Shown here: piece by piece, positions 1,278 through 26,664 of the stretch
Numbering within the stretch: the stretch's first letter is position 1
Layout of the letters: every line of letters begins with the position of its first letter
Source of the DNA: a virus
Length of the DNA stretch: 33,150 bases
Virus record (IMG/VR): IMGVR_UViG_3300030225_000018
Span: 1-33,150 of that record
Direction: 5' to 3' (one strand)
Position numbers and translations under genes: made by a program
Notes under the pieces: model-generated
Seen by the model: only the letters and a program-made list of their open reading frames with translations
The model's database searches: none
What the model was told of the DNA's origin: nothing

Positions 1278-1790
1278 ATGGACATCGGTGATTTTGACAG
1301 CGACGAAGACGACAAGAAGCCCAAGCGTGCGCCTCGCTTTGGGAAGGCAAAGGGTGGCCGGCCTGCAGGCGAGTTGGCCACGAACAAATTCAAGAACGCT
1401 GATATAGCGGTCTCTCTCGTCAAAAACAGTGGCGTGCTGATCCTCGTTGCCAAAGACATGGGCATGAGCCGCGAAAGCCTCGTCAAGCGCATTGATCGCC
1501 ACCCGTACCTGCAAGAGATCATGGCCGAGATCGACGCCAAGATTTTGGACATAGCTGAGGGCAAACTGTTCGAAGCGCTTGGCAAGGGCGACATGGCCAC
1601 AATCCGCTGGTACCTTGAGCGCAAAGGGAAGAGTCGCGGATATGCCACCAAGATTGATCAAGACCTCAGCGCTGAGACCGTTACAGCAGTCGCGAAAGAA
1701 CTCCGCAGTCAAGGACTCGATGCACTCCGGGCTGCTAGGGACGCTCTCGCCGAAGGCAAAGTCCTCCCTTTTAAAGCTGATCGAGCTTGA
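1278..1790 (+). CDS. terS: Terminase small subunit
   Basis: 170 aa. The small terminase recognises the phage packaging site and loads the large subunit. A basic, Lys/Arg-rich N-terminus (residues 10-35) is followed by a helix-turn-helix-like stretch around residues 45-75 (VAKDMGMSRESLVKRI), then a helical region with IRWYLERKGKSRGY near 115, a pattern common in phage small terminases. The length is typical. The large terminase follows directly and overlaps the 3' end in another frame. The ATG at 1278 has only a weak upstream AGG. It is the first rightward late gene after the divergent region. Confidence is high from context and pattern; no database search was possible. Confidence 0.85.
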   Translation: MDIGDFDSDEDDKKPKRAPRFGKAKGGRPAGELATNKFKNADIAVSLVKNSGVLILVAKDMGMSRESLVKRIDRHPYLQEIMAEIDAKILDIAEGKLFEALGKGDMATIRWYLERKGKSRGYATKIDQDLSAETVTAVAKELRSQGLDALRAARDALAEGKVLPFKADRA

Positions 1791-3531
1791 GATTGATATC
1801 CTTGAGGGCCAGCAGGCGGCAGCTGAGGCCGAGGCTGCGCTTTCCCTGGTCGCTGGTGAAAAGCTCGATCACGAGGCTGAGCTTGAACGCTGCAGAACGC
1901 TAGGCGCCGTCTATTGGTTCAATCGCTGGGTCTGGACGTATGACCCTCGCGTGATCGGGCAGAAAGACGAGAACGGCAAGCCTCGATCGCCCTACATGCA
2001 GATGGTGCTATGGGAAAAGCAGGCACAGTGCGTGGCGTGGATCATCGAGCGCATCAAGGCCCAAGAGCCGTGGGGCATCAAGAAAAGCCGCGACCAGGGC
2101 GCAACCTACATCATGTGCGGCGTCGCGCTGTATCTCTGGCTATTCGAGCCTGGGTTCAAGACAACGCTCACGTCAGGCAAGGGTGCGGACTTCATCGATA
2201 AGATAGGCAATCAGGACTCGGTGTTTGAAAAGCTGAGGATCATGTTGCGCCGTCTGCCTTCGTGGATGCTGCCTAAGGATTTCGATTTCCGCAAGCACGA
2301 CTCCGTCATGCGCCTGATCAATCCAGAAACTGGCGCGCTGATCTCTGGTGAGCCGGGGGAAGAGGCGGGCCGTTCAGGACGCAGCTCGCTCTACCTCGTT
2401 GACGAAACCCAAATCCTCAGCAACCCGATATCGCTTGAGGCTGCCCTAGCCGGTAACGCTGAGTGCGTGGGCTGGATCGGCACGTATCACCCGACTGAAG
2501 GCCCTGGCAACTATTACGCCCGCAAGATCGCCTCGCTGCCCCTGACGCAGGTGTTCACGCTCTATTGGCGCGACGATCCCCGCAAAGACGATGCTTGGGC
2601 TGAACGCAAGAAAGCAACGCTCCTCGATCCGTCTACCTGGCCGGCTGAATACGAGATGGACCCTGACGCCAAAGCCGAAGACATCTGCATCCCGTCAGCC
2701 TGGGTTCGCTCAGCTATCGAACTGGCCAAGATCGAGCCGCGGCTGAAGCGCAGCGCTGTGGCTGTCACTGGTGGAGATATCGGGGGAGGCAAGGCCAAGA
2801 GCGTCGCAATCAGCCGCTACGGGCCCGTCGTGCCTGTTGACGGCGTAGCGTGGCGCCAAGAGGGGGATACGACGAACACCGCCTATTGGCTCCTGCGCGA
2901 GGCATCCAAGCACAATTCGAAGCGCGTCAACTTCGATAGCCCTGGCGTAGGGGCTGGGGTTGCCTCGACCCTCATGCATGCGGGCGAAACACGCGAGGAC
3001 AATTCCCTGCGCCGCGAAGGTGACCTGAACGAGCAGAACATCCCTCTTGACTTCGTTCGCCGCGTTCAGGTCGCTGGCATCAACACGGGTCTGCCAGCCT
3101 CAGAGGATCGCACCTGGCCCGATGAACGCACATCGAAGGATATGTTCGCGAACCTCAAGGCTGAAATCGCATGGTTAGCCCGCACACGATTCCAGCGCAC
3201 GCATTGGCATGTGCTGTGGCTCAAAGGCCTAGAGGGTGGATCCGAGCAGGAGCTTGAAACCCTGATCTCGATCCCCGATCACTCAGAACTCGTGCCTCAA
3301 CTCTCTGTCGTGAAGTGGGGAAAAAACGAAAAAGGCAAGATCACGATCGAGTCGAAAGCCAGCCTGCAAAAGCGCGGCGTGCCTTCTCCTGACTTCTTCG
3401 ACGGTTTCGTTCTGACCATGATCGAGCCCGATGAAACAGGCCTCCCAGATTTTGAACTTGATCTGACGACGTTTTCGCGTGAAAACCCTTGGGCTATCGG
3501 GAGCCAGCCAAAATCGGAGTTTTCAGTATGA
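1720..3531 (+). CDS. terL: Terminase large subunit (ATPase/nuclease)
   Basis: 603 aa from ATG 1720, chosen for AAGGA 4-5 nt upstream; the open frame extends back to 1579. It is the ATP-driven packaging motor plus headful or cos nuclease. A deviant Walker A is at about 121-130 (KKSRDQGATY), Walker B with catalytic Glu at about 224-229 (LYLVDE), and a coupling-type GTYHPTEGPGN at about 254-264. The RNase H-like nuclease half shows acidic residues at GGDIGGG (about 351-357), FDSPG (about 405-409) and DFFDGF near the C-terminus. The start overlaps terS by 71 nt, longer than usual, so a later start (for example in the KLIELEIDIL stretch) is possible. The stop overlaps the next ATG (GTATGA). Confidence 0.93.
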   Translation: MHSGLLGTLSPKAKSSLLKLIELEIDILEGQQAAAEAEAALSLVAGEKLDHEAELERCRTLGAVYWFNRWVWTYDPRVIGQKDENGKPRSPYMQMVLWEKQAQCVAWIIERIKAQEPWGIKKSRDQGATYIMCGVALYLWLFEPGFKTTLTSGKGADFIDKIGNQDSVFEKLRIMLRRLPSWMLPKDFDFRKHDSVMRLINPETGALISGEPGEEAGRSGRSSLYLVDETQILSNPISLEAALAGNAECVGWIGTYHPTEGPGNYYARKIASLPLTQVFTLYWRDDPRKDDAWAERKKATLLDPSTWPAEYEMDPDAKAEDICIPSAWVRSAIELAKIEPRLKRSAVAVTGGDIGGGKAKSVAISRYGPVVPVDGVAWRQEGDTTNTAYWLLREASKHNSKRVNFDSPGVGAGVASTLMHAGETREDNSLRREGDLNEQNIPLDFVRRVQVAGINTGLPASEDRTWPDERTSKDMFANLKAEIAWLARTRFQRTHWHVLWLKGLEGGSEQELETLISIPDHSELVPQLSVVKWGKNEKGKITIESKASLQKRGVPSPDFFDGFVLTMIEPDETGLPDFELDLTTFSRENPWAIGSQPKSEFSV

Positions 3532-3983: not shown

Positions 3984-4193
3984 ATGCCAAAAACTAAGGA
4001 TACCTATGTACTCATCAACCATCGCCCAGAGTCCTCCTATCCTGAGGGCGCTCGCTTTTACGATGAAGGCGTAGCGGATTATGAGGCCGGCAAGCCAATG
4101 CTCGCCTATAGCTCCAGATCGTACAGAGATGGTTGGAAGGATATGGCTGAAACGTCCATACCACCGCTCACCCCTGTGCAGGAGGCTGACTGA
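3984..4193 (+). CDS. Small hypothetical protein (69 aa)
   Basis: 69 aa. ATG 3984 follows CGGAGACGAAA, a ribosome-binding site nearly identical to that of the preceding gene. It is acidic and Tyr-rich with a short repeated flavour (GARFYDEGVADYEAGKP, YRDGWKDM) and no Cys, TM or catalytic signature. The stop TGA overlaps the next ATG (TGATG), indicating coupling. Unknown function within a string of post-terminase accessory genes. Confidence 0.65.
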   Translation: MPKTKDTYVLINHRPESSYPEGARFYDEGVADYEAGKPMLAYSSRSYRDGWKDMAETSIPPLTPVQEAD

Positions 4194-4675
4194 TGGAAGC
4201 CTATGGATTTACCAAAAACATATGTGATCTGCTGACCGCTGCCACAGTGGTAGATCATGAAACGCGAGTGGAATTGCTGGCAAAGCTTAATGCCGATGAG
4301 GGATTGAGCGCGCTGATAGATGCTTTTTCCAACTTCATCGGGATGGCAGTCAGCGTAGGCGAAAACAACGCAGTCCATTTGACAGAGGTGCTGACCAGCC
4401 AAGGATTTGAAATCCCGGCAGGGCAAAAGGTGGTTGTTCCAACCGTCTTTGGCGCAATGTCAGGATATCAGATGGCTGCCTGGGCAAAGTCTGAAAAGCG
4501 CTGCGCTACATGCGCATACAGGCTTGGCTCTGTGGCCAACCAGTGCCTTGAAACAGTCTGTGACGCCGAATATGCCGGGCCGTTCGATGAGCTTTTCATG
4601 TGCCACGAAGATATGAAAGACGGCGAGCCGACGCGCGGATGTGCGGGATGGGCAGAGGCGGAAAGCGCCAAATGA
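4193..4675 (+). CDS. Cys-cluster phage protein
   Basis: 160 aa, coupled to both neighbours (TGATG upstream, ATGA downstream). The first about 95 residues are helical. The C-terminal part has six or so Cys in the pattern C-x2-C (RCATCAYRLG) ... C ... C ... C (FMCHE) ... C (GCAGWA), which suggests a bound metal, zinc or Fe-S. A CATCAxR signature of this type occurs in small hypothetical proteins of alphaproteobacterial prophages (recalled, not checked). No enzymatic motif. It sits next to another Cys-bearing small protein, so the pair may act together. Role unknown. Confidence 0.7.
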   Translation: MEAYGFTKNICDLLTAATVVDHETRVELLAKLNADEGLSALIDAFSNFIGMAVSVGENNAVHLTEVLTSQGFEIPAGQKVVVPTVFGAMSGYQMAAWAKSEKRCATCAYRLGSVANQCLETVCDAEYAGPFDELFMCHEDMKDGEPTRGCAGWAEAESAK

Positions 4676-4950
4676 CGATCACCTCCGCCACCCCGCGCGA
4701 CAGGCCTATCCCCGACCACCTATGCACGGTCTGCCGCATCCTATGTGGCTATGGTATAGGGTTTGACGAAAAGGCCGTCTGGTACTGCATAAACCACGTG
4801 CCGGCCGATTTCTTCTCATCCGTGCGCAAGGCCATGAAGGAGGCTATCATTGCGCAGGATGAAGCTCTTAGTTCGACGCCTCAAGCCATAAGTAAGCCAC
4901 CCATTGCCCCAAGTAGCCTACCCCAGGGCGACCTGTTCGGCAGCTTCTGA
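4672..4950 (+). CDS. Small zinc-finger-like protein
   Basis: 92 aa. The ATG at 4672 overlaps the previous stop (ATGA). The frame continues upstream, but that part is a shadow of the neighbour. Near residues 18-42 it has CTVCRILC...WYCINH, a C-x2-C ... C-x2-H type ligand set typical of treble-clef or zinc-finger folds. The C-terminus is Pro/Ser-rich and ends QGDLFGSF, a short peptide tail resembling a clamp- or partner-binding motif (QxxLF). The clamp-binding idea is inference only. It is the last gene before a terminator at 5025-5050. Confidence 0.65.
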   Translation: MTITSATPRDRPIPDHLCTVCRILCGYGIGFDEKAVWYCINHVPADFFSSVRKAMKEAIIAQDEALSSTPQAISKPPIAPSSLPQGDLFGSF

Positions 4951-5024
4951 CTTGCCAAGGAAAAAGATGGTGCTATAGATTTCCACGTTCGGTCCTGTGC
5001 CCAGCGCGGCAATCTGCACAGGCC

Positions 5025-5050
5025 GGGTGAGCAGCAATGCCACCCTTTTT
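5025..5050 (+). terminator. Intrinsic terminator after accessory genes
   Basis: GGGTG at 5025-5029 pairs with CACCC at 5041-5045, with an inner GC/GC pair and bulged A, followed by TTTTT. A second hairpin CCTGTGC/GCACAGG lies just upstream (about 4994-5022). It closes the terS-to-4950 transcription unit. Confidence 0.65.
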
Positions 5051-5084
5051 ATGAGGCAGAAGGGCTTTTTGATCGCCGCGACGG

Positions 5085-5766
5085 TCTGAAATGTCAATCC
5101 TGCCCTACCGGGTAATACCGGGACACTGGTGTAAGCTCAGCAACGGTTCTGTAGGCCTACCGTAAAAAGACCTCCACAGTTTTGCCTAGGGTAACGTGCC
5201 CTGTGATGGCGGAGGGACCATAGCGGGCAGTGTCCAAAACCTGTGCCCGCACAAAGTTTCGCTCGAAAGGGCATAGAGTTTGTGCGATAGGGTCTGAGTG
5301 TGTTTCAGACGGGAGATTAGGCGTTCCGAAGGTGGCGTCTATCCTGCGAATTCCTTCTAAGCCGTCCTGGTATTGTTCCAACCAGGGTCGCACAAGACTA
5401 AGCGCGGATGCCGTGAACGATGGTGCGCTATAGAAGTAAAGCCACGGTGTAGGGGCTGCCAAATCAGCGCCCCATTTGATCTTCGCCTTCGGGCAACCAG
5501 TGTAATCGCTTGGCGGTTTATGCGCCTTGGACCTGAAATAACAGGTGTATCGCCGGGAAACCGGAGTCGAAGTTTAATACCGTGGGAAGGCGCGAGGTTT
5601 GGGATTTATCCCTTTGCCCCGAAATCAAGGACAAATGATCCTCCGAAACAGCGCATGGAGCGTCTCGACATAGCGGGGCACGTGTTACAATAGGCGATCT
5701 GAAGACTCCATTGGTGAGCACGCACCGGTTAAGCCCTGTCAGAAATGGCGGGGCTTTTCATTTGGG
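5085..5766 (+). ncRNA. Candidate large structured phage RNA
   Basis: About 680 nt with no convincing gene, between terminators at 5025-5050 and 5731-5760. Helices seen on the plus strand: CACAG 5175-5179 with CTGTG 5201-5205, extended by CCTC/GAGG (5171-5174/5212-5215); GGGCA/TGCCC 5225-5229/5244-5248; CGCACAAA/TTTGTGCG 5248-5255/5279-5286 enclosing GCTC-GAAA-GGGC (5261-5272); GTCTGA/TCAGAC 5292-5310; CCTGGT/ACCAGG 5366-5386; GGGGCTG with CAG..CCCC 5452-5473; GCC-TTCG-GGC 5485-5494; and GCGCCTT/AAGGCGC 5522-5528/5587-5593 enclosing ACCTG/CAGGT and CCGG-GAAA-CCGG (5553-5564). GNRA and UUCG loops and a U-G wobble fit plus-strand RNA. Its length and phage context recall GOLLD/ROOL ornate RNAs, but that assignment is untested. 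Confidence 0.6.
5731..5760 (+). terminator. Intrinsic terminator of candidate RNA
   Basis: AAGCCC 5731-5736 pairs with GGGCTT 5751-5756, then TTTTCATTT. It directly follows the structured segment and precedes the membrane-protein cassette. Confidence 0.75.
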
Positions 5767-5772
5767 CGCAAT

Positions 5773-5782
5773 GTGATACCGT
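5773..5782 (+). promoter_or_regulatory. GTGATACCGT element, copy 1
   Basis: GTGATACCGT placed exactly 18 nt after the start of the terminator T-run, the same geometry as copy 2 at 6233. The GATACC core could be an extended -10 element reading into the gene at 5822, with the T-rich tract as a -35 region. Function is inferred from duplication and position. Confidence 0.45.
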
Positions 5783-5821
5783 GGCCGTCCTTGCAAGAGT
5801 CCAACAGAAGGATATCCACAA

Positions 5822-6160
5822 ATGGCCGAAAGACCACGCTACCTGATCATTGCCGTCCTTGGCTGCGCATTCCTCGCAGCAATCGCCTGCACATTCGCCA
5901 TGGCACCGAACATCGAGATCATGCGACGGCCTATCGCGTTCATGTTCCAATACGTCCTGGCGCCGTCTGCCGAAACCATCGCCTTTTCGTTCGCGTTCTA
6001 CCTGCTGTTCGGCCTGACCCGCTATGCCATGCTGCGCGTCATCGATACGACCTATCGCGTGCTGTTCTCGACACTGCCCGGCGCCGGCAAGCTGACGCTG
6101 AAACAAGACGGCCTGCTGTGGGTTGCGCCTGATCACCAGATCCGATATCTTGCGATCTAA
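5822..6160 (+). CDS. Small two-TM membrane protein (moron-like)
   Basis: 112 aa with AAGGA about 9 nt before ATG 5822. Two hydrophobic helices: residues about 7-27 (LIIAVLGCAFLAAIACTFAM) and about 52-70 (ETIAFSFAFYLLFGL), then a more polar C-terminal tail ending HQIRYLAI. The codon third positions are GC-rich, unlike the non-coding segment before it. It stands alone between two terminators (5731-5760, 6187-6220), each followed by the same GTGATACCGT element, so it looks like an autonomously expressed insert. It could be a holin-like protein, a superinfection-exclusion protein or a host-envelope modifier. The sequence does not decide. Confidence 0.75.
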   Translation: MAERPRYLIIAVLGCAFLAAIACTFAMAPNIEIMRRPIAFMFQYVLAPSAETIAFSFAFYLLFGLTRYAMLRVIDTTYRVLFSTLPGAGKLTLKQDGLLWVAPDHQIRYLAI

Positions 6161-6244: not shown

Positions 6245-6408
6245 GCACATAGGACGGCCCAGAATTCACCCTTCGTCCATCGTGCGAAGGAATGGGCTCA
6301 CCAGGTTGTCTCAAAGCGTGTGGGCTTTGTCCTTCGTCCCCTCGGCATGCAATGGTGAGTAAACGAGATCAAGCCCGTGGGGTGCGTCCTGCGGGCTTTT
6401 TCGCACCC
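6245..6408 (+). ncRNA. Possible small RNA or leader upstream of portal
   Basis: About 160 nt without a gene between a GTGATACCGT element and a terminator. Hairpins: CCTTCG 6270-6275 with CGAAGG 6285-6290, and CAAAGC 6312-6317 with GCTTTG 6324-6329. The 3' end is a terminator whose loop can pair with bases after the T-run. The CCTTCGTCC sequence occurs twice (6270, 6331), giving alternative pairings. It could be a free small RNA or a regulated leader for the portal gene. Confidence 0.4.
6371..6401 (+). terminator. Intrinsic terminator with pseudoknot potential
   Basis: AAGCCCG 6371-6377 pairs with CGGGCTT 6392-6398, followed by T's. The loop contains GGGTGCG (6380-6386), perfectly complementary to CGCACCC (6402-6408) just past the T-run, so an H-type pseudoknot or a competing fold is possible. 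It lies 63 nt before the portal start. Confidence 0.7.
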
Positions 6409-6463
6409 ATTGCCGCGAGAGGTCGTTTCCCGTAACTTGACCGTGAAATCAAGGAGTCGGGCA

Positions 6464-7870
6464 ATGGCCAAGGGATACACACCGCCTAGTGAATATGGCG
6501 CCACAGGCCTGCGGCAGTTCTCGGGCTACGTCCGCGAGGAGGCTCTAAGAGAGCTTTCTGGCCCGCTTGGTATGCGGATGTATAGGGAGATGAGCGAAAA
6601 TAATGCCGTCATAGGCGCTATCCTCTTCGCCACCGAAATGCTTCTGCGCTCCGTTCCCTTCCGCGTCGAGCCCGAAGACAAGGCCAATGCAGACGACATA
6701 GCAGCCGGTGAATTTGTCACTGAGTGCATGAGCGACATGGAGCAGCCGTGGGCGCACATCCTGGCCGACGTGCTGGGCTTCATCAAGTACGGCTATCACG
6801 TCCGTGAAATTTGCTTCAAGGTCCGCGGTGGTGAAAACCCTGAAAACCCTGATCTGAATTCCCGCTATGATGATGGCCTGATCGGCTGGCGTAAATGGGC
6901 GCCACGTCCGCCTGAAACGGTGCTGCACTGGGTATTCAATGACGCGGGCAATGCAGTCGCCTTGGTCCAATTGTTACCCACTGGGGGGCCACTTCTGACC
7001 GTGCCGCTTGATAAGTGCATGCACTTTACGACCACGATCAACAAATCCAATCCAGAAGGTCGCTCTAGTCTTCGGTCCAGCTACGTATCGTACTATTACG
7101 TCAAGCGTATCCAAGAAATCGAAGCCATTGGCATCGAGCGCGACCTCTGCGGCGTGCCGGTGGCATGGATTCCCATGGAGGTGATGGACCCTAACGCACC
7201 ACCTCAAAAGAAGCAGCAGTATGAAGCGTGGAAGGCTGCCGTGCGCGACGTGAGTAGGAATGCTCAGGAGGGCTTCGTCTTCCCGCTGCTGTTCGACAAG
7301 GAAAAAAACCAGCTCTATAAGTTCGAGCTGATGAAGTCGGCCGGCACACGGTCTTTCGACACTACCAAGATCATCGACCGATATGACATGCGGATCGCGA
7401 TGACGTTCTTGGCTGACTGGCTCACGCTGGGGCAGGGATCGACAGGGGGCCGCGCCTCAACCGGTCAATCGAAGAACAAGACTGACATGTTCTCGAAGGC
7501 GATTGGTGGCTATCTCGATCTGATCTCGGCAGAGCTAAACCGCAAAGCCGTGCCTGATCTACTCAGCATCAACAGCATGAAAGGCCGCTGCATCATCACC
7601 CACGGGGATGTGTCTCGCACCGATATCGTTGACCTCTCCACCGCCGTCATGCAACTTGTCCAGGTTGGCGTATTCACTCCTGACCCTGATCTTGAAGCGC
7701 ACCTCCGCAATGAGTTCGGCCTTCCCCAACAGGACGGTGAGGCGAGCGACGAACTCAACGAGGGCGGTTCGTCCCAAGATGCTGATAATGCCGACACGCA
7801 AGGTGGTGACACGGACAATGGCACTCCGCAGGGTGATGGCCAGGAACAAGCCACGGTGGATGACGAATGA
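6464..7870 (+). CDS. Portal protein (DUF935/Mu gp29-like)
   Basis: 468 aa from ATG 6464, with AAGGAG 7 nt upstream; the frame extends upstream through the terminator region, which is not coding. The portal forms the dodecameric ring at one capsid vertex through which DNA is packaged. Features typical of the DUF935-type portals: the N-terminal NNAVIGAILFATEMLLR, the middle helix-rich SSYVSYYYVKRIQEIEAIGIERDLCGVP segment, FDTTKIIDRYDMRIAMTFLADWLTLGQ near residue 325, and MFSKAIGGYLDLI. The last about 55 residues are an acidic, Gly/Asn/Asp-rich tail. The stop overlaps the MuF start (ATGA). Family assignment is from recall of motifs. Confidence 0.88.
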   Translation: MAKGYTPPSEYGATGLRQFSGYVREEALRELSGPLGMRMYREMSENNAVIGAILFATEMLLRSVPFRVEPEDKANADDIAAGEFVTECMSDMEQPWAHILADVLGFIKYGYHVREICFKVRGGENPENPDLNSRYDDGLIGWRKWAPRPPETVLHWVFNDAGNAVALVQLLPTGGPLLTVPLDKCMHFTTTINKSNPEGRSSLRSSYVSYYYVKRIQEIEAIGIERDLCGVPVAWIPMEVMDPNAPPQKKQQYEAWKAAVRDVSRNAQEGFVFPLLFDKEKNQLYKFELMKSAGTRSFDTTKIIDRYDMRIAMTFLADWLTLGQGSTGGRASTGQSKNKTDMFSKAIGGYLDLISAELNRKAVPDLLSINSMKGRCIITHGDVSRTDIVDLSTAVMQLVQVGVFTPDPDLEAHLRNEFGLPQQDGEASDELNEGGSSQDADNADTQGGDTDNGTPQGDGQEQATVDDE

Positions 7871-8838
7871 GCCGGTGCGAAAATGGCTGCGTAGCGCGCA
7901 AGTGGCCTGATTTCGGACGCGCGCCGAACTTCCCGAAGATCACCAAGGCTGGCGATGAGCCTATCAAGCCGTCTGACTATGAATGGCTGCTGGCCATCGC
8001 TGACAAGGTGAAAGGGAAGGTGCGCGCTGCATTCCTGAACCTCATCGAGCAGATGCGCAACGAAGCCGACATGCAGGCGCTCAGGGACGCTCTACAGTCA
8101 GGCGATATCACGCGGGCTATGAGTGCCCTGGGCATGGGCGACAACTTCCCGTCTCGTCTCAGTACTGCGATCAAGCCGCCATTGGAAGACGTGTTTATCG
8201 AAGCCGGCCGCGCTGCTGGTGATCGAGGCGTTCAAACGACGACAGGGCAAATCTCATTCGGCTTCGATGTCTCCAATCCCCATGCCGTCGATTTCCTGAA
8301 AAACTACGACATGGATTTGATTCGCGAGATCAGCGATGAGACGCGCGCCGCAGTAAAGCAAGTCGTGCTCGATGCCTTTCAGCAGGGCGGCCATCCCTAT
8401 CAGCAGGCCAAGACCATCCGGCAGATCGTCGGGCTCACCAAGCGCCAGGCCAAGGCTGTCACGAATTTCCGTGCCGCACGTGTTGCTGAAAACCGTCCTG
8501 CCGCTCAGGTTGATCGCATGGTGGCGAAGTATGAGCAAAAGCAGTTGAGGCTGCGGGCTGAGAACATCGCCCGTACAGAAACGATGCGGGCCTCGAACGC
8601 TGGCCAAGACGCGGCCTGGAATCAAGCTGCTGACAAGGGTTTGATCAATCGCGCGACGTTCAAGCGTCGATGGCTCGTGACGCCTGATGATCGCCTATGC
8701 GTCCTGTGTGCTGCTGTGCCGGCGCTAAATCCCGATGGCCGCAAGCTGGGGGAGCCGTTCATAACGCCAGTCGGGCCTCTGATGTACCCTTCGGTCCATC
8801 CTCAAGATCGCTGCATCCTCGTTGCGATGCCGTTCTAA
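7867..8838 (+). CDS. Phage Mu F-like head morphogenesis protein
   Basis: 323 aa, coupled to the portal by ATGA overlap. MuF/SPP1 gp7-type minor head proteins sit inside or near the portal and aid DNA delivery or capsid assembly. The C-terminal MuF domain is clear: RAENIARTETMRASNAG (about 230-246), then W at 269, TPDDRLCVLC (272-281) and HPQDRC (311-316), the conserved Cys/His set of the family. The N-terminal about 200 residues are helical. Length is normal and no toxin domain is appended. A terminator follows. It is the last gene of the portal operon. Confidence 0.9.
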   Translation: MSRCENGCVARKWPDFGRAPNFPKITKAGDEPIKPSDYEWLLAIADKVKGKVRAAFLNLIEQMRNEADMQALRDALQSGDITRAMSALGMGDNFPSRLSTAIKPPLEDVFIEAGRAAGDRGVQTTTGQISFGFDVSNPHAVDFLKNYDMDLIREISDETRAAVKQVVLDAFQQGGHPYQQAKTIRQIVGLTKRQAKAVTNFRAARVAENRPAAQVDRMVAKYEQKQLRLRAENIARTETMRASNAGQDAAWNQAADKGLINRATFKRRWLVTPDDRLCVLCAAVPALNPDGRKLGEPFITPVGPLMYPSVHPQDRCILVAMPF

Positions 8839-8899: not shown

Positions 8900-9100
8900 T
8901 CAGTGGGCAGCATGGCTTTTCCGATGGCTCGGAAAGTTTAACTGTCCCGGCGATGCGTTGGTGAAAAGAATATCCTCGTCCTCAGCGGCGCCTCCGCATT
9001 GTGCCATCAGCGCACTTTCGCAAACGACAGAGAACGAGCACGAATAGCGGTCGCCGAACTTGACCGACTCGAGAAGCGACATTTTTGCGATCACGGACAT
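8900..9100 (-). CDS. Small hypothetical protein, antisense to late genes
   Basis: Leftward 66-aa frame. ATG 9100 has an AGGAGA about 8 nt upstream, which supports it strongly. The sequence has three Cys (YSCSFSVVCESALMAQCGG) and an acidic EDEDI stretch; the C-terminus is basic (PSHRKSHAAH). It ends 24 bp from a terminator that works best in its direction. It is one of two leftward small genes embedded in an otherwise rightward late region. The family is not recognised. Regulation separate from the late operon is likely. Confidence 0.65.
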   Translation of the reverse strand: MSVIAKMSLLESVKFGDRYSCSFSVVCESALMAQCGGAAEDEDILFTNASPGQLNFPSHRKSHAAH

Positions 9101-9275
9101 GCGTGATTCTCCTGTGATGTTTGGAGGATTTTGCCTTTCGAGGAAGGATCAGCGCGCCGGGATGGACATCGGCAGGCAGTCGCTTCTTGTCGCGAGACGG
9201 GTTGAGACTGCCACGGATCAGCCCGATAGGCAAGCCGCTTGCAGACTCGCACTGTTTAGGCTTATGAAAAGGACG

Positions 9276-9308
9276 AGGCCCCAAGGAGCTTGTAACTCCA
9301 AGGGGCCT
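9276..9308. other. Strong hairpin of unknown role
   Basis: AGGCCCC 9276-9282 pairs with GGGGCCT 9302-9308, and GGAG 9285-9288 with CTCC 9296-9299, leaving a symmetric AA/AA internal loop and a 7-nt loop. No good T-run follows on either strand. It may be the 5' element of the structured segment to its right, or a weak terminator. Confidence 0.5.
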
Positions 9309-9400
9309 GATTTCCGCTGTTACGACCAGCGGGGGCATTTGCAAATGCGATCACAGTATCGCGTCTCCCCCCCGAAATTGCAATAGCGGCATAGCGCCCT

Positions 9401-9898
9401 ATCTCCCACTTTTTTAGTGGGCCGGAGAGCACGCAGCTTCGTTGCGCGTGCAGATCAAGCCGCGACGCGCAATGCCTACAAAAGTGAGCGGTGAAAAACC
9501 CGCAAAATCCAATCGGTCATTCATGCGGCTGATCTGGAAATGCCGTTACGTTGAATTGGTCCACAAAAGGTGATCGCGAAACCTACCTGCCTGAAAATGG
9601 CGGACCGCATGGATGTGCTCTTGGCTCCGGTCGAAACCTCAGGGAATCGAAAAGTCATCGGGTTGCGATTTGTCCGTTTGGGCAAATTGTGCCCGTACAC
9701 CAGTCAAGTTGCCTTGGGAATTGATATGGACAGAAGAAACTGGCTAAGCCATAAACACCTCGAAACCACCATAGCGGATAGCAGCAGTAACGGGGTGTAG
9801 CTCATAGCCTAGAGCACCGTCTGAAAGATGACGGAGGTAGGAGGTAGCGGAAAATCCTCTCACCGCCGATAGTTGCTATCGGGCCGAATGGTGGTTTC
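9401..9898 (+). ncRNA. Second candidate structured RNA segment
   Basis: About 500 nt with no convincing gene. Hairpins: CCCACT-TTTTT-AGTGGG (9405-9421); GCACGC/GCGTGC (9429-9451); a 12-bp helix with one bulged A joining CAGATCA and GCCGC (9451-9463) to GCGGC and TGATCTG (9525-9536); GGGCA-AATTG-TGCCC (9680-9694); CCAGT/ACTGG (9700-9704/9739-9743). An 11-bp inverted repeat GAAACCACCAT (9762-9772) and ATGGTGGTTTC (9888-9898) closes a domain holding a tRNA-like fold (9791-9868) and the hairpin CCGATAG-TTG-CTATCGG (9866-9882). A wobble pair in the tRNA-like arm favours the plus strand. No terminator is seen at the right end, so boundaries are uncertain. The stretch 9101-9400 otherwise holds only the hairpin at 9276. 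Confidence 0.5.
9791..9868 (+). other. Degenerate tRNA-like cloverleaf
   Basis: Acceptor CGGGGTG (9791-9797) pairs with CACC-G-CCG (9861-9868, one bulge). TA at positions 8-9; D stem GCTC/GAGC (9800-9803/9812-9815); anticodon stem CCGTC/GACGG (9817-9821/9830-9834) with an 8-nt loop TGAAAGAT containing GAA; 5-nt variable loop; T stem GGAGG/CCTCT (9840-9844/9856-9860, one G-U). The D loop lacks GG, the T loop is 11 nt without TTC, and no CCA follows, so it is unlikely to be a working tRNA. It may be a decayed tRNA or a tRNA mimic inside a larger RNA. Confidence 0.5.
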
Positions 9899-9921
9899 AA
9901 TTCCTTCGTAAATGCGACTTA

Positions 9922-10116
9922 TCAGCTTAAATCGCGCTTCTGCGTCAAAATGGCTGCGCACATCCTGGCTGCCGTATCTTCCATAACCTGAAAGGCCACA
10001 GCCCTCTCGTCAGTGAAGGCGAATTTCGCAGCTGAGGCTTGGGAGGCGATATGATCCATGATGATCAGAAACACCTGATCCTCGCGGCTCAAATCACCAA
10101 TGTTGATGCTGCCCAC
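9922..10116 (-). CDS. Small hypothetical protein, leftward
   Basis: 64 aa from GTG 10116. Codon third positions are GC-rich like the surrounding phage genes. The composition is protein-like and helical (SREDQVFLIIMDHIASQASA, then ERAVAFQVMEDTAARMCAAIL), with no TM or Cys cluster. No good ribosome-binding site lies upstream of the GTG, so the start is uncertain. It lies divergent to the XkdF-like gene at 10160, with 43 bp between, and could share a regulatory region with it. Function unknown. Confidence 0.5.
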   Translation of the reverse strand: MGSINIGDLSREDQVFLIIMDHIASQASAAKFAFTDERAVAFQVMEDTAARMCAAILTQKRDLS

Positions 10117-10159
10117 TGTTTGCCGTACTTTGCGAGGAATCGAACAAGGAGATCAGGCT

Positions 10160-11365
10160 ATGGGTATCAGGTCGTTTCTGCAAGCGCTCCGCAAGGATGA
10201 GCCCGGCGTTGATGATGTTCATGTGGCATCGACTGATCAGGGCAAGCCTGCCAAGAAACCCTCGAAAGGCAAGACGACGCCTGAGGGTTCACCGAAGAAG
10301 GGCGATCTGGTTGAGGTCAAGTCAGACGCGATGATCACGAACGCGCCCTGGACTTCGAAGGTGGTTGCGGCGGAAGGCTATCGCGTCAAGGTCGCCTTTG
10401 ATGACGGTGATTGCTGGTATGACCTCGATCCGGCCAATCTGGAAGGTACGACGCAGAAGGGCGAAAGCACGCTGTGGCAATTCGCCAAGGCTGAGCAGGC
10501 CGACGATCAGAACGACAACCTTGACCCGGCCAGCCAAAAGCCAGGAACTATTGAGGCATCCTCAACAGTTCAGCCTCGCGCACTTCGCCCGCTGGATGAG
10601 CAGCGCTCGCATTTCCCGTTGCCCCATGATCCCAACGCCCTGGCTAATCTGCGCGAGGATCAAAAGCCGCGGTTCTATGGCGCGATCACGGATGGGCACA
10701 AACTGCCAACCAAGATCTTTGCCATGTCTGATCTGACCGGCACGCAAAACCGCGTTGATACCGACAAGGTTCAATCAATGGCAGCGGCTGGCACTGCACA
10801 CAGCAAAATGCCTGTCGTCGTGACTAATGGTGGCCACAACCTGATTGCAGACGGTCACCATCGCGTTGCAGCTGAATGGCTGAATGGCGCCGACAAGATC
10901 ACGGCCCACCACAAGGACATCACCGAGCAGTCGAACGAAATGAAATCGGCCGGCCGCGATGCTGTGCAAATCATCGTGCCGATCACCAAGACGGATGAGG
11001 CTCAACGCCTGTGCTTCGGCTGGGCATCGGTCGCCAAGATCGGTGACGAGACGGTTGAGGATTGCCAGGGTTCGCAGATCGATATCGAAGACCTCGAAAA
11101 GGCGTTCTACAATTTCACTGAGGAACACCGCAACGCAGGCGAAATGCACGGCGACTATGGCCAGCAAAATGGCTCACTAGTCGAGTGCATGATGTTCACC
11201 CCGGAAAAGGAAGCGCTGGGCATTGTCGCCAAGGATGAGGCCGGCGAATCCATCTACGGCGCCTGGATTGGCTTTCGCGCCTCGCCTGAAATGTGGGCCA
11301 AGGTGCAGTCAGGCGAGAGGAAAGCCTTCAGTTTTGGTGGGTGGGCGACCAGAGAGGCCGTCTAG
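10160..11365 (+). CDS. XkdF-type prohead protease with ParB-like domain
   Basis: 401 aa. ATG 10160 is preceded by AAGGAG; an upstream in-frame ATG at 10100 lacks one. Residues 45-95 look like a small SH3-like beta domain (KKGDLVEVKSD...YDLDPANLEG). Residues about 195-245 carry a ParB-like signature, DGHHRVAAEWLNG at 231-243. Residues about 275-401 match the XkdF putative serine protease family: LCFGWASVAKIGDE, VEDCQGSQIDIEDLEKA, MHGDYG and FSFGGWA. By family knowledge it should process the scaffold and capsid during head maturation. A ParB-like domain fused here is unusual. A scaffold-like gene follows after a 16-bp hairpin. Confidence 0.8.
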   Translation: MGIRSFLQALRKDEPGVDDVHVASTDQGKPAKKPSKGKTTPEGSPKKGDLVEVKSDAMITNAPWTSKVVAAEGYRVKVAFDDGDCWYDLDPANLEGTTQKGESTLWQFAKAEQADDQNDNLDPASQKPGTIEASSTVQPRALRPLDEQRSHFPLPHDPNALANLREDQKPRFYGAITDGHKLPTKIFAMSDLTGTQNRVDTDKVQSMAAAGTAHSKMPVVVTNGGHNLIADGHHRVAAEWLNGADKITAHHKDITEQSNEMKSAGRDAVQIIVPITKTDEAQRLCFGWASVAKIGDETVEDCQGSQIDIEDLEKAFYNFTEEHRNAGEMHGDYGQQNGSLVECMMFTPEKEALGIVAKDEAGESIYGAWIGFRASPEMWAKVQSGERKAFSFGGWATREAV

Positions 11366-13446: not shown

Positions 13447-14406
13447 ATGGGTCAGCCCACATCAGGTGACGTCCACGTAGACGAGGCGCTTACCGACTTC
13501 TCTATTGCCTATATCCAACTGGCGACGAACTTCGTGGCCGGGAAGGCCCTGGCCGTGAAGCCGGTGGACAAGAAGTCGGACAAGTATTTCGTCTTCAACA
13601 AGGACGACTGGAACCGCGACGACTCCGTCAAGAAGCGCGCTCCCGGTGAACGCGCTCCTCGTTCTGGCTTCCGCCTGTCGACTCAATCGTATGACGCTGA
13701 TGCGTGGTGGACGGAATGCCCGCTCAGCGACATGGTTCAGGTCAATGCCGATCAGGGCCTCGCGCTCGATGTGGCCTGCACCAAACTGGTCACCCAGCGC
13801 TGCCTGATCCGCCGTGAACGCCAGTTCGTCTCCACCTTCATGGTGGGCTCCGTTTGGGGCACGACTGTCACGGGCGGCACGGACTTCACAAAGTGGGATG
13901 ACTATTCGTCGGATCCGCAAAAGGACATCGACACCGGCAAGAAGGCCGTGTGGGAAAACACCAGCTTCGTGCCCAACAAATTCATCGTCTCGTACCCGAT
14001 CCACCAAGCCCTGAAGCGCCACCCGGCGATCAAGGACATGATCAAGTACACGTCGAGCGAATCCGTCACCGCCGAAATCATCGCCAAGTACCTCGAAGTC
14101 GATGAATATCTGGTCATGTACGCGATCTACAACACGGCGCTCGAAGGCTTGGCTGGATCCTATACCGGCATCAACATGACCTCAGCCCTGCTGCTGTACA
14201 ACGATGGTGACCCGTCGCTCATGTCGCCATGTGCCGGCGCCCTGTTCGCCTGGACCGGTCTCACCGCATTTAACGAAAGCGGCGTCGCCATCGAGCAGTA
14301 CTATGACGTGACCACGAAGGATGACGTGGTTCGCGGTCAGTTCGCGCACGACATGGAAATCACCGGGTCGGCTTTGGGATATTATTACGCAACGGCCGTA
14401 TCTTAG
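13447..14406 (+). CDS. Major capsid protein
   Basis: 319 aa, an ordinary size for an HK97-fold coat protein without a large prodomain. Supporting pattern: an N-terminal arm, then FVAGKALAVKPVDKKSDKYFVFNKDDW, typical of coat proteins that begin vPvkkqsdkYfvf, followed by PGERAPRSGFRLSTQSYDADAWW, a long helix around residues 95-130 (ADQGLALDVACTKLVTQRCL), and KFIVSYPIHQALKRHPAI in the P domain. It builds the icosahedral shell. It lies immediately after decoration and scaffold genes with its own leader hairpins, consistent with high expression. AGGGG precedes the ATG. Context makes the call strong; the fold is inferred. Confidence 0.85.
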   Translation: MGQPTSGDVHVDEALTDFSIAYIQLATNFVAGKALAVKPVDKKSDKYFVFNKDDWNRDDSVKKRAPGERAPRSGFRLSTQSYDADAWWTECPLSDMVQVNADQGLALDVACTKLVTQRCLIRRERQFVSTFMVGSVWGTTVTGGTDFTKWDDYSSDPQKDIDTGKKAVWENTSFVPNKFIVSYPIHQALKRHPAIKDMIKYTSSESVTAEIIAKYLEVDEYLVMYAIYNTALEGLAGSYTGINMTSALLLYNDGDPSLMSPCAGALFAWTGLTAFNESGVAIEQYYDVTTKDDVVRGQFAHDMEITGSALGYYYATAVS

Positions 14407-15285: not shown

Positions 15286-16119
15286 ATGATCAATAGGCTA
15301 TGTGCAGCAATCCTGGCACCCATGCTGCTCCTCATCATGTGTGCTGCGCCTCAGGCGTATGCGCAGAGCATTACGAGCCCGTATTATGTCACACTCTGCT
15401 ATCGAGTGAGCGGAACGACATGTACGGCAGTCAGTTCGACTTCTCCACTTCCAGTTAGCGGCACGTTAAACATTGGGACTGGAGGGCCGTCGAACTATTC
15501 TCTTGAGACGGGCGGCAACCTCGCGACGATCGCGAGCAATACGACAGGCTCGGCGACGTCGGCTAACCAGGCGACGGCGAACGGCAGTCTGTCGATCATA
15601 GCTACGAATACGACGGGGGTTGCTACCGCCGCCAACCAAGCCACTGCGAATACGAGTCTTGCGTCTATCGCTACCAATACGGGGGTCGGTGCAACGGCGG
15701 CCAACCAAGCAACAGCTAACACGTCCTTGTCGACTATCGCAACTAACACCGCCGCCGCTCCTTCGAGCGTATTCAGCGCGCAAGGCCTTTACACAGGCGG
15801 TGGCGGTACAGCCCTTGTGTCCAATACGGCCATCGCCGTAAAAGGCGGCGCGGGGGCCTATTTCGGCATACGGACGGCCAAAAACACCAATGCCACGGAT
15901 TGCTATGTGCTGGTTTACAACGTGGCATCAGGGAGCGTCACGGTTGGTACGACTGTCCCGACGTTGACCATTCCCGTACCGGCAGGCGGCTATTGGGAAG
16001 AAAAGGACATCAAGGGCGAGAACTTCTCGACCGCTATGTCCGTAGCCGTCGTCATGACCACGCCAACCGGAAGCACAGCGCCAACAACGGCGTTCGGCTT
16101 CGACCTTATTTACAAGTAG
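15286..16119 (+). CDS. Secreted repeat protein with beta C-terminus
   Basis: 277 aa from ATG 15286, with GGAG nearby; the open frame reaches upstream through the terminator and is not coding there. A Sec signal peptide is evident: MINRLCAAILAPMLLLIMC then a likely cut after AYA. Residues about 80-155 are three 23-residue repeats (ATxxNQATANxSLxxIATNT type), likely a fibrous beta or coiled trimer stalk. The C-terminal about 100 residues are beta-rich (TVPTLTIPVPAGGYWEEKDI), like small phage knob or head-fibre tips. Signal peptides are unusual for virion parts, which fold in the cytoplasm. It may be a fibre with a vestigial leader or a truly exported protein. Confidence 0.75.
   Translation: MINRLCAAILAPMLLLIMCAAPQAYAQSITSPYYVTLCYRVSGTTCTAVSSTSPLPVSGTLNIGTGGPSNYSLETGGNLATIASNTTGSATSANQATANGSLSIIATNTTGVATAANQATANTSLASIATNTGVGATAANQATANTSLSTIATNTAAAPSSVFSAQGLYTGGGGTALVSNTAIAVKGGAGAYFGIRTAKNTNATDCYVLVYNVASGSVTVGTTVPTLTIPVPAGGYWEEKDIKGENFSTAMSVAVVMTTPTGSTAPTTAFGFDLIYK
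15523..15750 (+). repeat. Three 69-bp tandem coding repeats
   Basis: Units at 15523-15591, 15592-15660 and 15661-15729 plus a partial fourth, each encoding 23 residues with conserved ATANxSL and IATNT. DNA is diverged between units while protein is kept, so selection acts on the protein. Confidence 0.8.
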
Positions 16120-21406: not shown

Positions 21407-21661
21407 ATGATCGCCATTGATTTGCGGGTTGACGATGCAACCTCGACTCTTAATCCCGAAACAGGGCGACGAACCATAATGCTTGGTGGCATCGATCTTC
21501 GTGAAGTCGATGAAGACGCCATAACGGCAATTGTCACGGCACTCCGAGCTGTCACTGGCAAGCGCGTGCGGCTGATGGTGCTTGAGGTCGGCGAAGACTT
21601 CCCTGAAATGCCAAAGTCGCGCAAGCCGCACACTGGCGAAGGCTCAGATCCGTTCGCGTGA
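21407..21661 (+). CDS. Small hypothetical protein in tail block
   Basis: 84 aa with CGGAG 7 nt before ATG. An alpha/beta-looking small protein (MLGGIDLREVDEDAITAIVT, then VRLMVLEVGEDFPEMPKSRK) with a short disordered tail. No recognised family. It is placed between the tail terminator and the DUF115-like gene with no gaps, so it belongs to the same transcript. Unknown role. Confidence 0.62.
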   Translation: MIAIDLRVDDATSTLNPETGRRTIMLGGIDLREVDEDAITAIVTALRAVTGKRVRLMVLEVGEDFPEMPKSRKPHTGEGSDPFA

Positions 21662-21668
21662 GTACGCC

Positions 21669-22280
21669 ATGATCCCGAGGATTTTTGAAGGTGAGACCAT
21701 GTTCATCGTGGCGGGGGGTGCATCACTGATGGCGCTGGATTTCGATCGCCTCATAGGAAAAAAGCATATCGCTCTGAACTTCAGCCTGCGCTTTTGCCCA
21801 CAGGCCGATATCCTATATTTCACAGATGCGCATTTCTTCCGGGAAAACCGCGAGGAGATCGAGGCCCACGCTGCGCCCTGGAAAGCCTCTGGCCATATCA
21901 ACCAAGAGCCTGGCACACCGGACTGGCTGCACGTCTATCGCCTGAGTGCTCGGGAAGGCTTTGATCCTGATCCCACAGCCCTGCGCCACGGCAACACATC
22001 CACCTATGCCGCTATGCACCTTTGTGCCCACATCGGGGTAAAGCGAATCGTGCTGCTAGGCGTCGATATGTGCCTAAGCCCTGAGGGGCGCACCCACTAC
22101 TATGACGGCCACGAATATCCAGAGCGCTCATATGTCTATGTTGAGTGCATGGTTCCGTTCTTCGCTGGCCTCTATCAACCCTTTAAAAATATGGGGATTG
22201 AGGTACTTAACGCCTCTCCAAAAAGCCAGTTGAAAATATGGCCCAGAATATCGCTTGAAGAGGCAATGAGCCTGACCTAG
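21669..22280 (+). CDS. DUF115/glycosyltransferase-like Rossmann protein
   Basis: 203 aa from ATG 21669, the likeliest start; ATG 21699 has a better AAGGTGAG and would shorten it by 10. The N-terminus EGETMFIVAGGASLMALDFD, with KKHIALNFSLRFCPQADILY and FTDAHFF, matches the nucleotide- or sugar-binding start of DUF115/MptE-like and sialyltransferase-like proteins (GGGPSL...D). Further on are TSTYAAMHLCAHIGVKRIVL and GVDMCLSPEGRTHYYDG. It could modify host or phage glycans or nucleotides. An enzyme of this sort within a tail block is unusual. The catalytic activity is not proven by the sequence. Confidence 0.65.
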   Translation: MIPRIFEGETMFIVAGGASLMALDFDRLIGKKHIALNFSLRFCPQADILYFTDAHFFRENREEIEAHAAPWKASGHINQEPGTPDWLHVYRLSAREGFDPDPTALRHGNTSTYAAMHLCAHIGVKRIVLLGVDMCLSPEGRTHYYDGHEYPERSYVYVECMVPFFAGLYQPFKNMGIEVLNASPKSQLKIWPRISLEEAMSLT

Positions 22281-23481: not shown

Positions 23482-26400
23482 GTGGCAAACGAACCAATCG
23501 ATCAAGTAGACTTTCAGATCGGCGGCGATGTCACCCCGCTCAAGACTCAAGCTGGCCCGCAGGCTAAGGCCGTCTTTGATGATATCGGCAACAGTGGGGC
23601 AGCAGCAGCAGCCAAGATCAGTGCAGCCTTCCAGAAGGGCGCTGATGACATTGCTGCCTCCGCAGCTAAGGCGCGAGGCTCCAGCGGCTTTGGCGGCGTT
23701 AGTGATGATCTCGACAAGCTCCAAGCCAAATTCGATCCCGTCTTTTCCAAACAGCAGAAATTCGCGCAAGCCCAAGGTGAAATAAACCGCCTTGTCTCTG
23801 AAGGGCGCATGACGCAGCAAGCCGGATCTGCGGCTCTGGCTGAGTTCGCAGCGGGTTTCGAGCATGTGAATGGGGCTTCCCGCAAAACCCGTGAAGGCCT
23901 CGTTCTGGTCCATGAATTTATCAGAGGTGATTTCAAGCGTGGGGTTGGATCAGCTCTGATCGAGCTGCAAAACTTCGGAGCGATGGGCGCTGTCTTCAAC
24001 CCGATCACGATTGGCGTTGTAGCCGCGACTGGCGCCCTCATAGCGATGGGTGTGGCTGCTGTCCAAGCTGATGCCCAATTGAGCAAAATCCAGCGCAACA
24101 TTATCATGAACGGCGGCGGGTCTGGGATCACGCAAAGCCAGCTTGCCTATCAGGGGGGCTTGGTCGGGCAACAAACCGGGATTTCGTCAATCGCGGGCCA
24201 AAATGCGATCATGACGCTTAATGCGCGCGGAAATATCCCATCACAACTTCTTCCCCAGGCGGCGACTGCGGGGACATATCTCGCTGAGGCGCAGGGTGCG
24301 TCTGGCAAGGATGCAACCAAAGTCCTTGACGATTTCGAAAAGGAACTAGCTGACCCGGCGAAGGGTGCCAAGGAATTGAATGAGCAGTTCAAGCTTCTGA
24401 GCGCCGGCCAAACGCGCGAGATCGATGACCTCAGCGCAACTGGTGACACATATGATGCTCAGCGGATCATCATCGAAGCCCTGACAGATCGCTCAAAAGA
24501 AGCAGCAGATGCGCTTGGCGGATTTCAGAAGGCCTTGAATTGGGTCACATCTGGCATTTCAGATGGTTGGTCTCGCCTTGGAAAGCTTGTCAACCAAGAC
24601 ATTGCCGACATATCCGGGAAGGCTGTTGGTGCTGGAAATACCCCTCAAGAGGCTATGGCCTATTGGGAACAGCAGCGCAAAAACGGCTTGGCGCAGAATG
24701 ATAGGGTCGGCAATAACCGCGCGCAATATGCATGGCAGCAAGAGTCTGTCGCTCAGGATCAGTACGATAAGCAACGTGACGCAGGTGAAAAGGCGCAAGC
24801 GGCGGCTAATGAAGACACGCTCATTAATCGCGCCAAAGACTTGGGCTCTAAATGGGACGTTGAGGGGACAAAGAGCGAGAAGCGCGCCGATGCTATATCG
24901 CAATATACGCAGGCCGTCATTGCTGCGAAAAATAAACTTGGTAAAGACAAGGGAAAAAGCCCAGGTCTGCTAAAGGCCGATCAGGAAAACCTTTCTGAAG
25001 TGCAGACCGGCTTGGCTAATGCCCAAAACCCAAATTACAAGCCAGGATCAGGCATTCCCAAGGCAAGGGCTGTCAAGGGGCCAAACTCCTTTCAGGTCGA
25101 TGCGCAGACGGCCGAAGAGCAACTGACCATTGCGAGGCAGATCGCGGCCGCGCCTGAGGGCCAACGCGCCATGCTGAAGGCGCAACTCGACGCGCAACTT
25201 CAGTATCAAAAGGACATGCTGAACCCGAAGGCCGCCCCGCATGCTGCGACCATTCGAGATACGAAGATTGCTGAGGCAGGCCTTGGTGAGCAAAGCAAAG
25301 CCAGTGATCAACTGGAAAACATCAATGAGAGCACAGCGGCCAATAGCCGTTTGGCAGATGCCTATGGCAAGAGCACATCTACGGCCAAGGCGGCTGAAAT
25401 TCAGAATACGGCCCTTGAAGCCAACCTGAAAAATCAAGCCGTCGATGTGGATAAGTTGACGGCTGCACTCACAAAGCAGGCCTTCGCCGAAGCACAGGTC
25501 TCATCGGCGCGTGGCTTTTCCGGCCTGACCACCTCAAACACGGCACTACAGGCCCAACTCGCCGCTGGGGGCGATCCTGCCGCCATGCAGGCCGCGAGGC
25601 GTCACAGCGAGGCCCTGGCGGCTAATCAGGGCATATTGGATGCGGCCGGCAATGATCCGTCGCGCCCAGCTCAAGCTAATGGGGCGGTAAATCAATATCA
25701 GGGCGCCCTTCAACAGCGCGACACGCTTAACCGCGGCATTTCTGACAATGCGGCGAATGACAACCTGCGCCAGCAAATATCGCTTGAGCAGCAGGAACTT
25801 GCTCTCAAAAATACTGATGTGGAATCTCGCGCCAAGGAAATGGCCGATATCGAGGCCACGACGCAACTGAAGAAGGAGGGGTGGACGGTCGATCAGGCTG
25901 GCTACGCCCAGGCGCTCGCCTCTCGCCAGCAACTTCTTGAACAGTCGGCGCAGCTTAATCTTGCCCTGCAAGGCCAGACTAAGGAGATGCAACTGACTGA
26001 CGCGCTCAAGAGCGGCTTAGAAAAGGTTGGAATGGCCGGCACGAAGTCATTCAAGGACATGAAGACGGCAGCGGCGAGCCTGCTTGATACGATTGGCGAT
26101 TTGCTCATCAAGCTTTATGTGGTCGATCCTCTAGTCAATAGCGCGATGTCGGCTATGGGCGCTGGATCATCCACAAATCCAGGCAGCAATCTAGGGGCAA
26201 GCATAGCCACTACGGCGGCATCATCTTTCATAAACTCAGCAGTCACCTCTACAGCAGCATCTGCGCCGGCAGCAGCTTCAGCAGCAATGGCCGCCTCATC
26301 TACAGTCGCATCTGCATTGAGCAGTATGGTTGCCCTAGCTGGTGGGGGCCCGCTTAACCCCGCTGGATACACCTTAGTCGGCGAGAATGGCCCTGAAATC

Positions 26401-26664
26401 CTCGGTCCTGGCCATGCTGGGGTTATCACACCAATGACGGCGCCGAACATGTCGGGCATTATGGGTGGTGGTGGATCGGCGCCAGTGACGATGAACCACA
26501 ACATCAGCATCGTCGTGAGCGGGACTGGTGACAAGGATCTGCTCAACAAGGTGCAAAGCGCATCGCACGCGGTGGTGAATCAAAGTCTGGCTGCCTACAA
26601 TCAGGTGACTCAGCGCAATTCGCGCCAACTTTCGATCAATGCCAACAATAGGGCGCTCCGCTAA
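23482..26664 (+). CDS. Tail tape measure protein
   Basis: 1060 aa from GTG 23482, with AGGA upstream. The tape measure sets tail length and occupies the tube lumen. The N-terminal region starts DQVDFQIGGDVTPLKTQAGP; coiled-coil stretches span about 60-150 and 400-860; hydrophobic segments are near 170-195 (NPITIGVVAATGALIAMGVA) and near 900-955 (Ala/Ser-rich). A C-terminal GGGPLNPAGYTLVGENGPEI with GHAGVITPM is the common tape measure hallmark. At 0.15 nm per residue the tail would be about 159 nm. No muralytic domain was identified. The stop overlaps the next ATG (TAATG). Confidence 0.92.
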   Translation: MANEPIDQVDFQIGGDVTPLKTQAGPQAKAVFDDIGNSGAAAAAKISAAFQKGADDIAASAAKARGSSGFGGVSDDLDKLQAKFDPVFSKQQKFAQAQGEINRLVSEGRMTQQAGSAALAEFAAGFEHVNGASRKTREGLVLVHEFIRGDFKRGVGSALIELQNFGAMGAVFNPITIGVVAATGALIAMGVAAVQADAQLSKIQRNIIMNGGGSGITQSQLAYQGGLVGQQTGISSIAGQNAIMTLNARGNIPSQLLPQAATAGTYLAEAQGASGKDATKVLDDFEKELADPAKGAKELNEQFKLLSAGQTREIDDLSATGDTYDAQRIIIEALTDRSKEAADALGGFQKALNWVTSGISDGWSRLGKLVNQDIADISGKAVGAGNTPQEAMAYWEQQRKNGLAQNDRVGNNRAQYAWQQESVAQDQYDKQRDAGEKAQAAANEDTLINRAKDLGSKWDVEGTKSEKRADAISQYTQAVIAAKNKLGKDKGKSPGLLKADQENLSEVQTGLANAQNPNYKPGSGIPKARAVKGPNSFQVDAQTAEEQLTIARQIAAAPEGQRAMLKAQLDAQLQYQKDMLNPKAAPHAATIRDTKIAEAGLGEQSKASDQLENINESTAANSRLADAYGKSTSTAKAAEIQNTALEANLKNQAVDVDKLTAALTKQAFAEAQVSSARGFSGLTTSNTALQAQLAAGGDPAAMQAARRHSEALAANQGILDAAGNDPSRPAQANGAVNQYQGALQQRDTLNRGISDNAANDNLRQQISLEQQELALKNTDVESRAKEMADIEATTQLKKEGWTVDQAGYAQALASRQQLLEQSAQLNLALQGQTKEMQLTDALKSGLEKVGMAGTKSFKDMKTAAASLLDTIGDLLIKLYVVDPLVNSAMSAMGAGSSTNPGSNLGASIATTAASSFINSAVTSTAASAPAAASAAMAASSTVASALSSMVALAGGGPLNPAGYTLVGENGPEILGPGHAGVITPMTAPNMSGIMGGGGSAPVTMNHNISIVVSGTGDKDLLNKVQSASHAVVNQSLAAYNQVTQRNSRQLSINANNRALR

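Follow-up and report, generated by a model that had tools for sequence, protein, structure and literature searches.

What occupies the interval between the terminase and portal genes of this phage? The sequence that we analysed, a virus record of 33,150 bases (hereafter the window), belongs to a tailed phage known from metagenomes only. Family searches placed the terminase large subunit gene at 1579-3531 and the portal gene at 6377-7870 (ATG probably at 6464), followed by genes for head morphogenesis (7867-8838), a protease-like protein (10100-11365), the major capsid protein (13447-14406) and the tape measure protein (23482-26664); tail genes were also identified. A gene-free stretch (4955-5820) lies between terminase and portal and contains the segment 5085-5766, for which an original prediction had proposed a large, ornate plus-strand RNA, perhaps of the GOLLD or ROOL kind or else of a new, unrelated class. 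Terminase, portal, capsid and tail genes surround the candidate RNA, which is thus phage-encoded, as GOLLD is. Our preferred reading, to which we assign a probability of about 0.55, is that the segment would be a self-contained accessory structured RNA gene (an RNA 'moron') placed among the structural genes of this tailed phage.

Coding potential was assessed through codon usage, the large genes of the phage serving as the training set for the score. It called the large structural genes coding, as well as 1278-1790 and 5822-6160, and detected a coding signal in no frame between 4955 and 5820, with a sensitivity that can miss small genes, the gene at 4600-4950 also scoring negative. Reading frames of the segment had no credible Pfam or phage relative, in agreement with the gene-free character first claimed for it. 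The leftward frame 5157-5573, whose conservation as a protein had been named as a point against an RNA, gave neither a Pfam match nor a credible phage relative. A real protein gene that escaped detection, for example this frame, which is indeed open, was already disfavoured and is highly improbable in view of these results and of the negative codon scores of the reading frames there.

Elsewhere in the window, the protein encoded at 21582-22280, among neck and tail genes, matched PHROG 4603, annotated as alpha-2,3-sialyltransferase (E 1e-28). The Pseudomonas phages F116 and H66 conserve a protein related (34-36%) to the product of 4193-4675; in the F116 record, the match lies at 1732-2163, where the only annotated gene that it overlaps is the shorter F116p04 (2007-2213). 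Read by eye, 30545-33150 appears to be a long open frame that continues past the window end, likely for a tail-fibre-type protein; this region is probably not gene-free, though it is absent from the list of open reading frames. A GCC-rich low-complexity repeat tract (70-190) lies at the contig end, with a G+C content of 79% over 1-200. Nothing in this analysis supported the alphaproteobacterial host that had been thought probable. Scans of prokaryote genomes for portal and capsid, limited to two peptide patterns each, found nothing.

Folding of the segment was strand-specific. The 682 nt of the plus strand reached a minimum free energy (MFE) of -265.9 kcal/mol, with a z-score of -4.06 against 120 dinucleotide shuffles, compared with -1.18 for the minus strand (120 shuffles); a smaller shuffle set (n=20) gave -4.4 and -1.4, respectively. 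GNRA or UNCG hairpins of at least 4 bp numbered four on the plus strand, a count reached by 1.8% of shuffles, and zero on the minus strand. Together with the z-scores (-4.1 versus -1.2), the tetraloops point to plus-strand RNA, as had been proposed. At the unpaired positions of the segment, A-enrichment was not above that of shuffles, which counts against the RNA reading.

A genome-internal comparison covering 44 window-strand combinations placed the segment near the top, with an energy excess of -29 kcal/mol over shuffles. Among 20 other plus-strand windows of equal length, one folded as well, a coding window at 15701 (excess -30), and a second gene-free region (9239-9920) showed an excess of -29 to -30 on both strands. 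Since one coding window folds equally well, stability alone is no proof of a structured RNA. That window also speaks for the main rival to an RNA gene, in which the segment would be intergenic DNA that has no function or changes rapidly, either filler or the decayed remains of a gene insert, with a fold excess due to chance and the terminator at 5731-5756 as its only functional part. We regard such neutral or decayed DNA as possible but doubtful. The strand asymmetry and the end closure described below both lie beyond shuffles, and no remnant of a former gene was found among Pfam families or phage relatives. Phage structural-gene regions are usually compact, and filler DNA sits badly with this.

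A long closing stem, in which 5125-5208 pairs with 5669-5729, frames the predicted fold as a whole; the original prediction overlooked it. Between the first and the last 130 nt, 36 pairs have P>0.9. Shuffles average 4 such pairs (0/60 shuffles reach 36), and the highest value among 30 downstream windows is 28; the statistic was picked after viewing the fold, so its weight is below what the count suggests. Predicted pairings of this stem include 5125-5132/5722-5729, 5135-5139/5715-5719, 5182-5188/5691-5697 and 5195-5204/5673-5682. The features of the locus, all on the plus strand, are the following.

5043-5064, plus strand: upstream intrinsic-terminator-like hairpin, CCCTTTTTATGAGGCAGAAGGG-CTTTTTG, which parts the segment from the gene at 4600-4950 (consensus match only).
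5110-5125, plus strand: candidate transcription start region, GGGTAATACCGGGACA, proposed from sequence.
5120-5757, plus strand: candidate RNA unit of about 640 nt (strand-specific fold excess, end-to-end closure, no coding signal).
5125-5208, plus strand: 5' strand of the predicted long closing stem (5125-5132, 5135-5139, 5141-5143, 5182-5188, 5195-5204 and others; P mostly 0.95-1.00).
5248-5286, plus strand: predicted 8-bp helix 5248-5255/5279-5286 with an inner 3-bp helix and the GCUC-GAAA-GGGC tetraloop hairpin (P 0.99 and 1.00).
5292-5341, plus strand: two neighbouring predicted hairpins, GUCUGAG/UUCAGAC and UAGGCGUU/GGCGUCUA (P 0.98 and 0.95).
5366-5386, plus strand: predicted hairpin CCUGGU/ACCAGG (P 0.98).
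5442-5585, plus strand: predicted domain closed by the 9-bp helix CCACGGUGU/AUACCGUGG (P 0.97).
5669-5729, plus strand: 3' strand of the predicted long closing stem (5673-5682, 5691-5697, 5711-5713, 5715-5719, 5722-5729; 36 closing pairs with P>0.9).
5731-5756, plus strand: terminal intrinsic-terminator-like hairpin with an 11-bp stem and a GAAA loop, then TTCATTT (terminator scan, base-pair prediction).
5822-6160, plus strand: gene for a small hydrophobic protein, next after the segment (coding signal; relatives are identical copies only; no family match).

All sequences named in the original prediction are present in the segment, namely GCGCCTT (5522-5528) with AAGGCGC (5587-5593), CGCACAAA (5248-5255) with TTTGTGCG (5279-5286), CCGGGAAACCGG at 5553, GCTCGAAAGGGC at 5261 and GCCTTCGGGC at 5485. 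The 8-bp helix and the GCUC-GAAA-GGGC hairpin belong to the MFE structure. The 7-bp closing helix 5522-5528/5587-5593 exists as sequence but falls outside it, and forcing the helix costs 8.2 kcal/mol; the CCGG-GAAA-CCGG and TTCG hairpins are likewise present but outside the MFE structure, at a cost of 2.4 and 3.2 kcal/mol, respectively, and forcing all three jointly costs 10.5 kcal/mol. These two hairpins represent an alternative fold inside the domain 5442-5585, and all three elements together compete with that domain. The inner fold thus appears ambiguous in the ensemble, energy models being unreliable for choosing at 680 nt, and this ambiguity is a point in favour of filler DNA. For the large, ornate plus-strand RNA as a whole, support comes from the lack of genes, the strand-specific fold, the end closure and the terminator-like site, while part of the helices first drawn for it lie outside the MFE structure.

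The segment had also been described as bracketed by intrinsic terminators. Terminator-like sites do occur on both sides, at 5043-5064 and 5731-5756, but a simple terminator scan returned only 3 sites in 1.7 kb versus 1.5 expected, and such sites by themselves are evidence of little force, although the downstream one has the 11-bp, GAAA-capped stem and TTCATTT tail listed above. It starts 2 nt past the closing stem's 3' strand, and 65 nt separate its end from the next gene. Closure of the ends with a terminator immediately after suggests one RNA unit, with a transcript running from ~5120 to ~5757. On the 5' side, TAATACC would possibly place the RNA end near 5120-5125, at the start of the closing stem; no sigma-70 consensus promoter was found at 5110-5125 or just upstream of the candidate RNA, likewise a point against an RNA gene.

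The spacing of the terminator between closing stem and next gene would suit a long structured leader or attenuator for 5822-6160 and the portal gene, in which the upstream fold decides the fate of the terminator at 5731-5756. We consider this unlikely: the MFE structure holds no anti-terminator pairing, terminator and closing stem coexist in it, and a leader of about 640 nt would be very long. In addition, the window contains just two copies of GATACCGT, at 5775 and 6235 on the plus strand, each ~18 nt behind a terminator and ahead of a gene. It is possibly a phage promoter element, and its position just behind terminators hints at separate starts for the genes downstream.

We then asked how the candidate relates to known large RNAs. 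A covariance-model scan of all Rfam families, the check put forward with the original prediction, matched none of them: Rfam 15 gave 0 gathering-score matches in the 33,150 bases (OLE, group I/II introns and pRNA included), and the strongest match below threshold within the segment reached 17.9 bits for a cut-off of 50, which is chance level at E<=10. At E<=10, the GOLLD model (RF02032) hit nothing, either across the full window or within 700 nt, in a search run without a positive-control genome. The ROOL model (RF03087) had no match either, with a control set that did not contain ROOL, so that this per-family search ran without a positive control. ARAGORN and the tRNA covariance model detected no tRNA in the window. 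These results give no support to membership of GOLLD or ROOL.

GOLLD and ROOL are phage and prophage RNAs often located near tRNA islands, and tRNAs sometimes lie within the GOLLD linker; the function of GOLLD is unknown, its expression rises during lysis and it forms a nanocage (PMC12286853). Like GOLLD, the candidate is phage-encoded, several hundred nt long and complex in its fold, predicted in this case; it differs by having no GOLLD sequence match, no family of homologues and no nearby tRNA, the nearest tRNA-like sequence being a degenerate stretch about 4 kb away. With ROOL it shares the phage or prophage location of a structured RNA and a similar length (the ROOL model has 574 positions), whereas it has no covariance-model match and is not near a tRNA island. 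OLE is an RNA of Gram-positive extremophilic or anaerobic bacteria, not of phages. At about 600 nt and with an elaborate fold (PMC9723947), it resembles the candidate in length and in the elaborateness of the fold (predicted for the candidate), which differs in being phage-borne and in having no Rfam match.

Homologues of the segment were sought widely. Distant BLASTN against INPHARED phages and PLSDB plasmids found none, the weak matches falling mostly on the terminator, and neither did three exact-motif scans of IMG/VR. The sole foreign motif match in IMG/VR (L052) was rejected, as it lies inside a coding frame. The segment was not found by local BLAST and nhmmer on related loci or by BLAST on 16 phage records. 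Single-sequence covariance models of 5440-5587 (R1) and 5243-5350 (R2) gave no homologue on 20 records and further loci; the best match (L036; E 0.095, 14.7 bits) was taken as chance. Only identical copies were found, all from the same phage, and a portal protein search returned two identical contigs of it (L002 and L003). That a second IMG/VR contig carries the segment unchanged speaks against an artefact of assembly. The absence of a homologue, and hence of covariation, in the databases and loci searched counts against the reading as an RNA gene and favours filler DNA.

Alignment of the portal led to 6 related viral loci, and that of the capsid to 31, down to about 31% identity. The portals of diverged phages are 52-57% identical to that of the window, and in these relatives the segment is missing between terminase and portal: at 52% portal identity (L004), the terminase-side ORF ends at 10023 and the portal ORF begins at 10034, about 10 nt apart, while at 57% (L009) only short ORFs lie between the two genes. 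Its absence from this locus in the nearest relatives makes the segment look like an accessory insertion. It also bears on a packaging-associated RNA acting with portal or terminase in the manner of phi29 pRNA, likewise a phage structural RNA, which the location among packaging genes, between terminase (1579-3531) and portal (6377-7870), would suit. This alternative is very improbable, given that relatives with related packaging genes and the closest portals lack the segment, that the pRNA family was unmatched in Rfam, and that the candidate, at about 640 nt, far exceeds pRNA in length.

Under the accessory RNA gene that we prefer, transcription of the plus strand would span approximately 5120-5757, the RNA would fold into multiple domains with the long closing stem clamping its 5' and 3' ends, and its own terminator would end the transcript. 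The RNA might then act in trans during infection as a stable structural RNA, a scaffold or container like those suggested for GOLLD and ROOL, while belonging to neither family; this last step, drawn by analogy, is tentative and rather doubtful. A new orphan large phage RNA is plausible but unproven, and at present it is a candidate from a single sequence. If the reading is true, the short list of large structured RNAs from phages (GOLLD, ROOL) gains a phage lineage and an unrelated sequence, repeated acquisition of such RNAs by phages is implied, and the locus offers a compact example for testing their function.

A second gene-free, strongly folding segment was observed 3.4 kb downstream, at ~9110-9915, between the head-morphogenesis and protease-like genes. 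Over 9310-9920, the fold z-score was -3.2 on the plus strand and -3.1 on the minus strand. A perfect 11-bp inverted repeat (9762-9772/9888-9898) flanks GGGGTGTAGCTCATAGCCTAGAGCACCGTCTGAAAGATGACGGAGGTAGGAGGTAGCGG, which looks tRNA-like by eye (D arm, anticodon arm, T stem) and fails both ARAGORN and the tRNA covariance model. The motif ATAGCGG, picked post hoc, occurs six times on the plus strand in the two gene-free regions (5220, 5670, 8880, 9044, 9383 and 9771) and twice elsewhere on that strand, and ACCATAGCGG is an exact match common to both candidate RNAs. From these observations, an accessory RNA pair is conceivable. The phage would then encode a pair of large structured RNAs of a novel type (5120-5757 and about 9110-9915), single-phage so far, inserted among its structural genes and perhaps acting jointly. 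The second would have a tRNA-like part, and the pair would have arisen independently of GOLLD and ROOL, as something comparable to them; we consider this extended proposal speculative and rather unlikely. On the minus strand, 8900-9100 contains a 66-codon open frame with no family match, preceded just ahead of its start by AGGAGA, a ribosome-binding-like site.
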